NCBI GenBank assembly: GCA_004298675.1 | Contig: SCRI01000023.1 | Location: forward strand, 1 to 27,577 | Direction of reading: 5' to 3' | From: a bacterium | Lineage (GTDB): Bacteria; Vulcanimicrobiota; Vulcanimicrobiia; Vulcanimicrobiales; SCRA01 | Length of the DNA: 27,577 nucleotides | Shown here: positions 7,613 through 10,623 of the stretch, in pieces | Numbering within the stretch: position 1 is the first letter of the stretch | Layout: every line of letters begins with the position of its first letter | Notes under the pieces: model-generated | What the model saw: the letters and a program-made list of their open reading frames with translations, nothing else | Database searches by the model: none | Told to the model about the DNA's origin: nothing | Program-made: the position numbers and the translations under genes

Positions 7613-7650
7613 TTGTGGATACCGGGTGAAAGTTGTGGACCGCTTGTGGA
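7613..7650 (+). promoter_or_regulatory. Three phased TTGTGGA repeats upstream of minC (DnaA-box-like)
   Basis: In the 190-base spacer between the divergent M48 protease and minC, the heptamer TTGTGGA occurs three times on the same strand at 7613, 7633 and 7644. The starts are 20 and 11 bases apart, close to whole helical turns. The first copy, TGTGGATAC, differs by one base from the reverse complement of the consensus DnaA box TTATCCACA; the other two match less well. They may bind DnaA or another regulator of the min genes, or be part of the promoter. The repeats are seen; the binder is inference. Confidence 0.4.
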
Positions 7651-7690
7651 GGGCGCAGGGCGCCGACTCGGGCTGGGCGTATGGGGGCCC

Positions 7691-8458
7691 ATGCCGATCG
7701 TTCGCGGGACGCGCAGCGGGCTGGAGTTCGATCTCTTTGCAAGCCCCCTCGTGGAGCTCTTGCCGCAGGTACGAAGCAAGCTCGACGCCTCTCCGGAGTT
7801 TTACCGGGGAGCCGCTGGCGCGCTCTCCTTCGGTGACGCCGCTCCGGACGAGAGCGCGTTCGACGAGCTGGTGGCGGCGTTGGCCGAGCACGGGATCGCG
7901 GTAGCCGGCGTGCGCGGCGGGGCGGCGGTCGCCGAGTTCGCCGAGCGGCGCGGCCTAGCCTATCTCGGAGCGCTGGCGCCGGCGGCGCCGAAAGCGCGCC
8001 GTCTCTCGGCCGCGGCACGCTCCACGCAGGCCGACTTCGCCGGCGCGCGCGCGGACCTCGCACGCCGCAGATTGCGCGCGGTGCATGAGCCGGAGTCGCC
8101 GCAGCCCGCCGGCGCGATCGGCGAGGGCACGGAACTTCATCGCGGAACGCTGCGAGGCGGGCAGGCCTTGCGCCGGCACGGCTCGATCGTCGTCTTGGGG
8201 GACGTCAACCCGGGTGCCGAGTTGATCGCCACCGGCGACATCGTGGTGATCGGGGCTCTGCGCGGCATCGCCCACGCGGGGGCGCAGGGCGACGTGGGCG
8301 CGTGTGTTTTCGCGCTCGACTTGTCGCCGACGCAGTTGCGCATCGGCCCCCACATCGCCGTGGCGCCGGAAGGCGAGCGGCGGCGCAGCCCCGTTCCCGA
8401 ACTTGCGCGGATCGAGGACGGGCGGATCGTGATCGTGCCCTACGCGCCGCCGCGGTGA
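7691..8458 (+). CDS. minC: Septum site-determining protein MinC
   Basis: Inhibitor of FtsZ assembly that is brought to the membrane by MinD and keeps the division septum away from the poles. 255 residues from the ATG at 7691, preceded by a G-rich ribosome site. The N-terminal domain (1-100) is divergent but of the right size. The C-terminal beta-helix domain is clear: GTLRGGQAL (152-160), VVLGDVNPGAELIATGDIVVIGALRG (167-192, family pattern) and LSPTQLRIG. The MinD-binding RSGQ motif reads RGGQ here (155-158). An acidic/alanine linker separates the domains. The gene lies 48 nt before minD1 and heads the min cluster. Confidence 0.9.
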   Translation: MPIVRGTRSGLEFDLFASPLVELLPQVRSKLDASPEFYRGAAGALSFGDAAPDESAFDELVAALAEHGIAVAGVRGGAAVAEFAERRGLAYLGALAPAAPKARRLSAAARSTQADFAGARADLARRRLRAVHEPESPQPAGAIGEGTELHRGTLRGGQALRRHGSIVVLGDVNPGAELIATGDIVVIGALRGIAHAGAQGDVGACVFALDLSPTQLRIGPHIAVAPEGERRRSPVPELARIEDGRIVIVPYAPPR

Positions 8459-8506: not shown

Positions 8507-9304
8507 GTGAGTGAAGTAGGGCGGCGTATCGTCGTGACCTCGGGCAAAGGCGGCGTCGGCAAGACGACGACGACCGCCAACCTCGGCTGTGCGCTGGCGC
8601 GCGCCGGCCGCAAAGTGGTGCTCGTGGACGCCGACATCGGCTTGCGCAATCTCGATCTCGTGCTGGGCTTGGAAAAGCGTATCGTCTTCGATCTGGTCGA
8701 GGTGGCCGAGGGGCGTTGCGCTCTGCGCTCCGCGCTGATCAAGGACAAGCGTCTGGAGGATCATCTGTGGCTGCTGCCTGCGGCGCAGACGCGCGACAAG
8801 CAGGCACTGAGCGAGGAGCAGATGGAGGCCATCACGCGGGAGCTCGCCGGGACGGTAGATTACGTGCTGATCGACTGCCCCGCCGGTATCGAGCACGGCT
8901 TCCGGAACGCCGTGGCCGGTGCCGACGAGGCCATCGTCGTCACGACGCCGGAGGTCAGCGCCATCCGTGACGCCGACCGTATCGTCGGCAAGCTCGGGGA
9001 GCGCGCGTTGCCGACGCGGCTGATCGTCAACCGCATCCGCCCCGAGTTGGTGAAGGCGGGCGACATGCTCTCGGTGGACGACGTGTGCGAGGTGTTGGGT
9101 CTGGAGTTGTTGGGCATCGTTCCCGACGACGAGGACGTCATCGACACCACCAATCGCGGCGAGCCGGCCGCGCTGGCCGAAGGCACGCGCCTGGCGTCGA
9201 TCTACGGCAAGATCGCCCGCCGCTTGGAGGGCGAGATGGTGCCGTTCACGAGTCTCGAGCCACAGAGCTTCCTAGGCCGGCTCTGGGACGCTCTGGCGGG
9301 TTAG
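8507..9304 (+). CDS. minD: Septum site-determining protein MinD, first copy
   Basis: Deviant Walker-type ATPase that binds membrane when ATP-loaded and recruits MinC; MinE triggers release. 265 residues, the usual length. Signature Walker A SGKGGVGKT (12-20) with signature lysine K14 and K19, switch I DADIGLRNLD, LIDCPAGIE (Walker B region), TTPEVSAIRDADR and TNRGEP are all intact. The C-terminus QSFLGRLWDALAG makes a short amphipathic membrane-targeting helix. GTG at 8507 is chosen as the family start. A second full MinD follows 12 nt downstream, with AGGAGG overlapping this gene's stop. By eye the two proteins match along most of their length but are clearly not recent duplicates: loops and N-termini differ. 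Confidence 0.95.
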   Translation: MSEVGRRIVVTSGKGGVGKTTTTANLGCALARAGRKVVLVDADIGLRNLDLVLGLEKRIVFDLVEVAEGRCALRSALIKDKRLEDHLWLLPAAQTRDKQALSEEQMEAITRELAGTVDYVLIDCPAGIEHGFRNAVAGADEAIVVTTPEVSAIRDADRIVGKLGERALPTRLIVNRIRPELVKAGDMLSVDDVCEVLGLELLGIVPDDEDVIDTTNRGEPAALAEGTRLASIYGKIARRLEGEMVPFTSLEPQSFLGRLWDALAG

Positions 9305-9316
9305 GAGGGAGCAACG

Positions 9317-10189
9317 ATGGCCGACGGACGGAGCGCCGCCGCCTTGGAGGCGGAGAGCGTCGAGGTGCGTGAAGACGCTGTTAGCGCCGCGCAGCGCGAG
9401 GGGACGGCAATCGTCATCACCTCCGGGAAGGGCGGTGTGGGAAAGACGACCTCGACGGCAAATCTAGGCGCGGCGCTGGCGGCACGCGGACGCAGCGTGT
9501 GCCTGGTCGACGCCGACGTAGGGTTGCGCAATCTCGACGTGGTGCTGGGGCTGGAGAACCGCGTCGTCCATCACTTCCTCGACGTGATCGAGAAGGCGTG
9601 CTCACTCGAGGAGGCGCTGGTGCAAGACAAGCGTGTGCCGTCGCTGGTGCTGCTCCCCGCCGCGCAGACGCGTGAGAAGGACGACGTGGCCACGGCGGAG
9701 ATGGCCGCGCTGATCGAGGATCTGCGCAAGCGCTACGACTACGTTTTGATCGACTGCCCCGCCGGCATCGAGATGGGTTTCAAGAACGCCGTGGTAGGGG
9801 CGCAGCGCGCGATCGTGGTGACCACGCCGGAAGTCAGCGCGGTGCGTGACGCCGATCGCGTGGTGGGCCTGTTGCCCAAAGGCGTGGAGGCGCACTTGAT
9901 CGTCAATCGCCTGCGCCCGCAGTTGGTGCGTAGAGGCAAGATGCTCTCGGTCGCGCAGATCGACGAGATCCTGCGGCTGCCGCTCTTGGGCGTGATTCCC
10001 GACGAAGCTGAGGTGGTGGTGGCCACCAATCGTGGCGAGCCGGTCTCGCTCAACGCTGCTTCGCGGACCGGCGAAGCCTACCGTCGCGCGGTCTCGCGCT
10101 TGGAGGGGGAGCAGGTGGAGATCGACGACTACAGCGGCGATGGCGGCTTCTTCGAACGGCTCGCTGCTTGGATCGGAGGACGGCGATGA
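9317..10189 (+). CDS. minD: Septum site-determining protein MinD, second copy with N-terminal extension
   Basis: A second complete MinD ATPase, 290 residues. It carries about 30 extra N-terminal residues rich in alanine and glutamate before the core. Walker A SGKGGVGKT (36-44, with K38 and K43), DADVGLRNLDVVLGLE, LIDCPAGIEMGFKNAV, TTPEVSAVRDADRVVG and TNRGEP are intact. The C-terminus GGFFERLAAWIGGRR again forms an amphipathic membrane-targeting helix, so both copies should bind membrane. A strong AGGAGG ribosome site precedes the ATG at 9317. The stop overlaps the minE start as ATGA. Because both copies keep all catalytic and targeting motifs, neither looks like a pseudogene. Whether they form mixed dimers is unknown. 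Confidence 0.95.
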   Translation: MADGRSAAALEAESVEVREDAVSAAQREGTAIVITSGKGGVGKTTSTANLGAALAARGRSVCLVDADVGLRNLDVVLGLENRVVHHFLDVIEKACSLEEALVQDKRVPSLVLLPAAQTREKDDVATAEMAALIEDLRKRYDYVLIDCPAGIEMGFKNAVVGAQRAIVVTTPEVSAVRDADRVVGLLPKGVEAHLIVNRLRPQLVRRGKMLSVAQIDEILRLPLLGVIPDEAEVVVATNRGEPVSLNAASRTGEAYRRAVSRLEGEQVEIDDYSGDGGFFERLAAWIGGRR

Positions 10190-10623
10190 GCTGGTTGGAC
10201 GCGATTCTACGGTTCTTCCGTCCCACGCCTTCGGGCGTGGTCGCCAAAGAGCGTCTGCGTCTGGTACTGCTCTCCGACCGTATCCATCTGGCCCCCGATG
10301 TGATCGATCAGTTGCGCGGCGATCTGATCGCAACGATCTCCCGCTACATGGAGATCGACGAGGTCGGTCTCGACGTGACCTTTGAGACGCGCGAGAACGA
10401 CGTGGCGTTACTGGCGAATATCCCGATCAAGGCGGTGCGGGCACGTCCCTTGCCGCCGCCGGCGCCGGTTGTGCCACAGCCGGAGGAGGCCGTGGCGCAA
10501 CCGGAAGAGGCCGTGGCGTTGGCGGAGGTCGCGGCGGCGGACGGCGTTGCAGCTGCGGAGGCCGTGACCGTTCCGGCGCGCCGCAAGCGGGTGAAGGCGA
10601 AGGGGAACCCGGAGGCGGGTTAG
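10186..10623 (+). CDS. minE: Cell division topological specificity factor MinE with extra C-terminal tail
   Basis: MinE stimulates MinD ATPase and drives its redistribution along the cell. 145 residues from the ATG at 10186, overlapping the minD2 stop by 4 nt. Residues 1-85 are a normal MinE: an N-terminal amphipathic membrane helix (MSWLDAILRFF), the segment SGVVAKERLRLVLLSDR that contacts MinD, and the dimer domain through VTFETRENDVALLANIPI. Most MinE proteins end near 85-90. This one continues for about 60 residues of Pro/Glu/Ala/Val-rich, probably disordered sequence that contains a tandem heptapeptide QPEEAVA, then a basic patch RRKRVKAKG. The stop codon shares bases with the convergent dps stop. 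Confidence 0.92.
   Translation: MSWLDAILRFFRPTPSGVVAKERLRLVLLSDRIHLAPDVIDQLRGDLIATISRYMEIDEVGLDVTFETRENDVALLANIPIKAVRARPLPPPAPVVPQPEEAVAQPEEAVALAEVAAADGVAAAEAVTVPARRKRVKAKGNPEAG
10477..10518 (+). repeat. 21-bp tandem repeat inside minE
   Basis: Two adjacent 21-base units (10477-10497 and 10498-10518) encode the same heptapeptide QPEEAVA in the C-terminal tail of MinE, differing only at third positions. This suggests the tail grew partly by short in-frame duplication and has since drifted. Confidence 0.75.

Follow-up and report, generated by a model that had tools for sequence, protein, structure and literature searches.

Two diverged MinD proteins in the min operon of Eremiobacteriia and their possible division of labour

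The canonical MinCDE system of E. coli and other Gram-negative bacteria has one MinD, and the min operon described here encodes two diverged ones. This raises the question of what a second MinD does in such an operon, how old the pair is and whether the two proteins have taken on different parts of the work.

The operon and its products

The window (the whole stretch of DNA that was analysed, 27,577 nucleotides) comes from a 3.03 Mb genome, 98.5% complete, of the class Eremiobacteriia in the phylum Eremiobacterota. Between 7.6 and 10.6 kb it carries minC-minD1-minD2-minE, all on the + strand, followed by a convergent dps and then by rodA. The features of the operon are the following:

7691..8458, + strand: minC, with MinC_N and MinC_C domains (Pfam PF03775, E 1.6e-29; PF05209, E 3.8e-6; TIGR01222 100.7 bits, cut-off 95.25)
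8507..9304, + strand: minD1, GTG start, 265 aa, canonical N-terminus (TIGR01968 363.8 bits; clade D1, 100/98; pLDDT 89.9)
9269..9298, + strand: predicted C-terminal amphipathic helix of MinD1 (membrane-targeting sequence), residues 255-264, from the structure model and hydrophobic moment
9303..9311, + strand: strong Shine-Dalgarno sequence AGGAGGGAG, read from the sequence, overlapping the minD1 stop, 5 bases before the minD2 ATG
9317..10189, + strand: minD2, ATG start, 290 aa, the derived copy, with an N-terminal extension (TIGR01968 364.3 bits; clade D2, 100/99; pLDDT 87.4)
9317..9391, + strand: N-terminal extension of MinD2, about 25 residues, rich in Ala, Pro and acidic residues, of low model confidence and poorly conserved across the class
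10148..10174, + strand: predicted C-terminal amphipathic helix of MinD2, residues 278-286, from the structure model and hydrophobic moment
10186..10623, + strand: minE, with the MinE core, the contact-helix motif AKERLRLVLLSDR and a Pro/Ala-rich tail with a basic end (Pfam MinE 8.9e-21; TIGR01215 63.8 bits)

An earlier note on this DNA had described two full-length MinDs in tandem at 8507-10189, and these coordinates are exact. In the profile search both proteins lie above the curated bacterial MinD cut-off of TIGR01968 (212.9 bits) and are the only ones in the genome to do so, while Foldseek searches with the predicted folds returned the MinDs of E. coli, Aquifex and Pseudomonas as best matches (E 2e-28 and 2.5e-25). 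MinD1 is the conservative copy. The minD2 stop overlaps the minE start as ATGA (minE ATG at 10186), which, together with the Shine-Dalgarno sequence at the end of minD1, suggests that minD1, minD2 and minE are translationally coupled. For minC, the open reading frame as listed runs from a TTG at 7613 to 8458; the ATG at 7691 is the likelier start, since it sits just 5' of the MinC_N match.

Both MinDs have retained the residues expected of a MinD ATPase. In about 60 loci that were sampled, K11, K16 (the deviant Walker A), D40, E53, the Walker B residue D120 and D152 are kept in MinD1 and MinD2, as is the switch I residue N45 in all but one sequence, so that the claim of intact Walker A, switch and Walker B regions in both proteins has held up as invariant or nearly so. 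The same can be said, at the level of prediction, of the C-terminal targeting helices: both tails are modelled as helical and their mean maximal hydrophobic moment exceeds that of shuffled tails (mean z 1.7 and 1.5). The MinD2 helix is less basic, with a mean net charge of 0.42 for its tail versus 1.64 for that of MinD1. The extension of MinD2, which had been put at 30 residues, is real, given the Shine-Dalgarno sequence ahead of the ATG at 9317, and it is somewhat shorter, with about 24-28 residues before the first strand. It spans about 15-30 residues throughout the class and is predicted to be disordered, the first 20 residues having a pLDDT of 57-63. In 26 of 48 loci of the lineages f1 and f2, including L174, L178, L181, L186, L192 and L204, MinD2 has a His directly after the start codon (MHQL, MHEL, MHVL and the like), and this start, placed before the disordered linker, resembles a short linear motif. 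As an explanation of the general function of MinD2 the Met-His start was rejected, as it is absent from the window and from the lineage f3.

In MinE, PF03776 spans positions 1-68 of the 68 in the model, so that both the contact helix and the topological specificity domain are present; the contact helix AKERLRLVL is unusually uniform across the class, and AKERL is kept with the equivalents of R21 and L22. The Pro/Ala/Glu-rich tail of this protein of about 145 aa (10450-10620) terminates in the basic ARRKRVKAK, a possible second membrane contact, and basic C-terminal clusters also occur in some other MinEs of the class (e.g. SKKKR in L192). In MinC, the linker between MinC_N and MinC_C carries a conserved ARSLxADFAGARADIxRRR in many f1 and f2 proteins (L173-L231); in its strict form the motif was found in 25 of 48 of these and in none of the MinCs of f3, the sister classes or the outgroups.

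Distribution and age of the pair

MinD matches are found in 112 of the 117 genomes of the class Eremiobacteriia that were examined, and 110 of those 112 carry at least two. A single match was obtained in two genomes, 74% and 61% complete, and among the 112 none was found that cleanly misses just one copy. Class genomes that lack MinD also lack MinC, which suggests that the operon has been lost or missed as a whole. The relatives had been proposed as a check of the minC-minD-minD-minE order, and it is found class-wide, in every sampled locus uncut by contig ends; the pair is also carried by a genome that consists of one contig of 3,508,363 bases (G090). In the rest of the phylum, the 20 genomes with a MinD match have exactly one each, and the sampled loci of other classes and phyla read minC-minD(-minE), with a single MinD in every one. 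The rule of one MinD per operon is thus kept in the other classes of the phylum and broken in this one, and within the phylum the two-MinD trait cleanly marks out a single class. In the open-licence literature that was searched, no paper describing a min operon with two MinDs came to light.

Two further observations concern the copy number of the system. In other classes of Eremiobacterota, the genomes G117-G120 (family f4) and G141-G144 (f16) are fairly complete and have no MinD match, and G117 and G119, which were tested for MinC, lack it as well, suggesting that the Min system has been lost in some lineages outside the class. One metagenome-assembled genome of the class, G069, holds two full minC-minD1-minD2-minE operons (L204 on contig C13, L205 on contig C20), whose MinD1s are 95% and MinD2s 92% identical; the bin either mixes strains or comes from a genome with a duplication of the whole operon.

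The maximum-likelihood tree recovers one clade for MinD1 (100/98) and one for MinD2 (100/99), and both clades persist after removal of long branches. Each divides identically into f3 versus f1 and f2, which indicates that the two proteins are older than the radiation of the class; on this phylogenetic evidence the two-MinD arrangement is ancient and general in the class. The mean identity within MinD1 is 73%, that within MinD2 69% and that between the copies 54%, in agreement with the description of the two MinDs as clearly diverged. Within the genus, dN and dS between this genome and L035 are 0.067 and 0.70 for minD1 and 0.091 and 0.67 for minD2; with dN far below dS in both, the two genes are under purifying selection. 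The only broken copy seen, the minD2 of G031, breaks at an ambiguous base (N) of the assembly. Two findings had been named that would speak against a lasting pair, namely a very recent duplication and the decay of one copy in relatives: tree and distribution rule out a recent or strain-specific duplication, and the dN/dS values rule out that one copy is becoming a pseudogene.

The origin of MinD2 is compatible with duplication or with transfer, as the trees fit either. In free trees MinD1 falls beside Cyanobacteria, and in the tree without long branches MinD2 takes that place; holding MinD1 and MinD2 as one clade is not rejected (AU p 0.30 and 0.17), and it is not favoured either. A Kofleriaceae metagenome-assembled genome (L082) carries a myxococcal minC-minD-minE; its MinD sits on a long branch and joins the MinD2 clade (97/87), which could be a transfer or a long-branch artefact.

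Changes at the partner-docking surface

The sister classes have single-copy MinDs, with 149 conserved positions, and against these as ancestral reference the two copies can be compared for the states that each has lost. Two regions stand out:

8954..9001, + strand: helix 7 of MinD1, residues 150-165, placed by alignment and model; K162 (codon 8990-8992) corresponds to E. coli I159
9518..9622, + strand: switch I to alpha-3 stretch of MinD2, residues 68-102, equal to E. coli 41-75, with 10 of the 13 losses, including H86 (E. coli D59)

MinD2 has lost the reference state at 13 positions where MinD1 has kept it, and 10 of them lie between E. coli residues 41 and 75, a stretch that leads from switch I to alpha-3; in a scan test this clustering was equalled in 1 of 20,000 random draws. 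The position of E. coli D59 is His in 59 of 60 MinD2s, and residues fixed in a copy-specific manner (e.g. D62/H86) are seen in the MinD alignment. MinD1 has lost only 4 reference states, two of them in helix 7 (150 and 159). At position 159 it has Lys in all sampled f1 and f2 sequences and Met in all of f3, whereas Leu is found in all sampled MinD2s and nearly all single-copy MinDs. MinD2 has thus kept helix 7, and MinD1 the switch I/alpha-3 stretch.

Both regions are known to be engaged by the partners of MinD. The RSGQ motif of MinC and the contact helix of MinE dock at helix 7 (PMC5548801), on S148, D154 and I159 (PMC6803595). MinE R21 contacts MinD E53 (PMC12462528), MinE acts through N45 of switch I (PMC6803595), and both protomers of the MinD dimer are contacted by the MinE peptide (PMC13170346). 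The losses of MinD2 within 41-75 flank E53 and include the neighbourhood of N45, with E53, N45 and D154 themselves kept in both copies. Taken with the published contact sites, the copy-specific losses indicate that each paralogue has been altered in one docking half and conserved in the other. Judged from the alignment, divergence has affected one half of the known partner-docking surface in MinD1 and the other half in MinD2, and this result is new.

The MinC of the window has RGGQ in place of the MinD-docking motif RSGQ. RGGQ is found in nearly all f1 and f2 loci, which are the lineages with Lys at position 159 of MinD1, and RSGQ in f3. This association appears to amount to about one coincident evolutionary event with exceptions (L175 combines K159 with RSGQ), and may serve only as a lead.

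A probable sharing of work between the two MinDs

The preferred reading, which we consider probable, is that the two proteins are MinDs that have specialised and do non-redundant work within a single Min system. MinD1 and MinD2 would replace the single MinD of the operon that positions the division site and would work together, both binding ATP, dimerising on the membrane and being released by the one MinE. Part at least of the working pool would consist of MinD1:MinD2 mixed dimers with non-equivalent faces. As we infer that helix 7 of one subunit and the 41-75 stretch of the other make one site, one face of such a dimer would combine the ancestral elements (helix 7 of MinD2 and switch I/alpha-3 of MinD1) and the other the derived ones (helix 7 of MinD1 and switch I/alpha-3 of MinD2), and MinE and MinC would then not need to compete for identical sites. 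A single MinE on one side of the MinD dimer is enough to set off both ATPases in E. coli (PMC6803595, PMC10691731), which makes a hard-wired asymmetric MinD dimer mechanistically workable; by analogy, a MinD1:MinD2 dimer of this kind could separate the faces for MinC and MinE. That mixed dimers are the main species is perhaps the case, although we hold it to be doubtful, and a little more doubtful is the stricter version of obligate heterodimers with chemically different faces, on which MinC and MinE dock from opposite sides.

When the rates of the Min proteins are compared on a shared tree, the strongest covariation is that of MinD1 and MinD2 (partial rho 0.50), which speaks for the preferred reading but, between paralogues, can also reflect shared constraint rather than contact. 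Against this reading stands the conservation of contact residues: E53, D154 and M193 are kept in both MinDs, and S148 and D198 mostly so (D198 is Gln in the MinD2 of this genus), which suggests that homodimers of either MinD may still be able to bind MinC and MinE. No experiments on Min oscillation or Z-ring placement in this phylum were found. The earlier suggestion of divided labour is best kept in its general form, for which the copy-specific changes in different halves of the docking surface argue indirectly, and not in its specific versions.

One of those versions assigns one MinD to MinC and the other to MinE, so that MinD1 homodimers would carry MinC and MinD2 homodimers the MinE-driven oscillation, with little mixing. 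The pairwise partial rate correlations do favour it, being 0.38 for MinC with MinD1 and 0.20 with MinD2, and 0.30 for MinE with MinD2 and 0.04 with MinD1; the gene order C-D1-D2-E mirrors the pairing, and K159 of the f1 and f2 MinD1s accompanies RGGQ as Met159 of f3 accompanies RSGQ. However, the direct contrast for this pairing gives p values from 0.014 to 0.31, depending on the data transformation and branch cut-off, and we do not claim the assignment because that contrast is not robust. Moreover, neighbouring genes may covary for other reasons, the link between RGGQ and K159 is that of roughly a single event, and the MinC and MinE contacts are present in both MinDs, all of which leaves this version unlikely. 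A role of MinD2 as a modulator, whose altered nucleotide cycle or membrane residence would tune the wavelength of the pattern, for instance in filamentous cells, next to a canonical MinD1, is a somewhat better candidate that we would still not expect to be right. It is in line with the more derived state of MinD2 (13 ancestral states lost versus 4), with changes near switch I and with the difference in tail charge. Alterations of the MinD membrane tail change patterns in vitro (PMC8155659). Vulcanimicrobium, a cultured member of the class with a 3.50 Mb genome, grows as rods and filaments of 1-92 um (PMC9758169), but no evidence ties filament length to the MinD pair; furthermore, the helix 7 Lys belongs to MinD1 and not to MinD2, and a modulator overlaps with the preferred reading of two specialised MinDs.

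The retention of all catalytic residues and of the membrane tails in both proteins would also be expected of interchangeable MinDs kept for their expression level. Such redundancy is improbable in view of the 54% identity between copies against about 70% within each clade, of the fixed copy-specific residues and of the fact that neither copy has been lost across the class. Lastly, relatives of the ParA/MinD family position many cargoes, and a docking motif could reside in the N-terminal extension of MinD2, so that MinD2 might act outside division on another cargo such as pili, its place in the operon being a mere remnant. This is very improbable, as minD2 always lies between minD1 and minE and overlaps the minE start, its MinE-contact residues (E53, D154, M193) are kept and its rate covaries with that of MinE.

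The preferred reading of two specialised MinDs can be set beside the systems already described. With canonical MinCDE the locus shares the order of minC, minD and minE, the MinD fold, the Walker A/B and switch residues, the amphipathic MinD tail, the contact helix of MinE and the C-terminal domain of MinC; apart from the number of MinDs, it differs in the altered I159 position of MinD1, in the altered 41-75 stretch and N-terminal extension of MinD2, in the RGGQ of MinC in most of the class and in a longer MinE tail. The other classes of Eremiobacterota (L148-L164), of the same phylum and with the same gene order, have a single MinD and in most cases a MinC with RSGQ. Thermoactinomycetaceae and some Cyanobacteria also have two MinD-type proteins per genome, but the second lies away from the min operon; such a protein, MinD-like and with 47-53% identity to the query, was observed in G151-G158 (Thermoactinomycetaceae; loci L054, L056, L057, L059, L061 and L064) and in G168 and G170 (Cyanobacteria). 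The 26 genomes from other phyla that were compared are those with the MinD most like MinD2. The archaeon Haloferax volcanii likewise has several MinD homologues per cell, MinD1-4, of which the names MinD1 and MinD2 denote different proteins from those described here, and it is not known to have a MinC/MinE operon. Its MinD2 has a role of its own in shape and motility (PMC11588486, PMC11621097). In PomXYZ of Myxococcus, a MinD/ParA system that positions division and has a doubled component, it is the ATPase-activating protein that is doubled and not the ATPase (PMC13170346).

MinDE is the textbook example of pattern formation by proteins, and its theory, like its reconstitutions, presupposes a single MinD species. 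With its two MinDs, a natural system of this kind would offer a direct test of whether competition of MinC and MinE for a common site is obligatory, a test of hard-wired one-sided activation by MinE, and a test of how a second ATPase species alters the wavelength and stability of the pattern, for which reconstitution would need just four small proteins. Obligate heterodimers, if true, would be a natural asymmetric version of a pattern former known only from symmetric homodimers. In this class, the usual single-protein oscillator seems to have been split into two specialised parts, as the retention of both MinDs under selection suggests.
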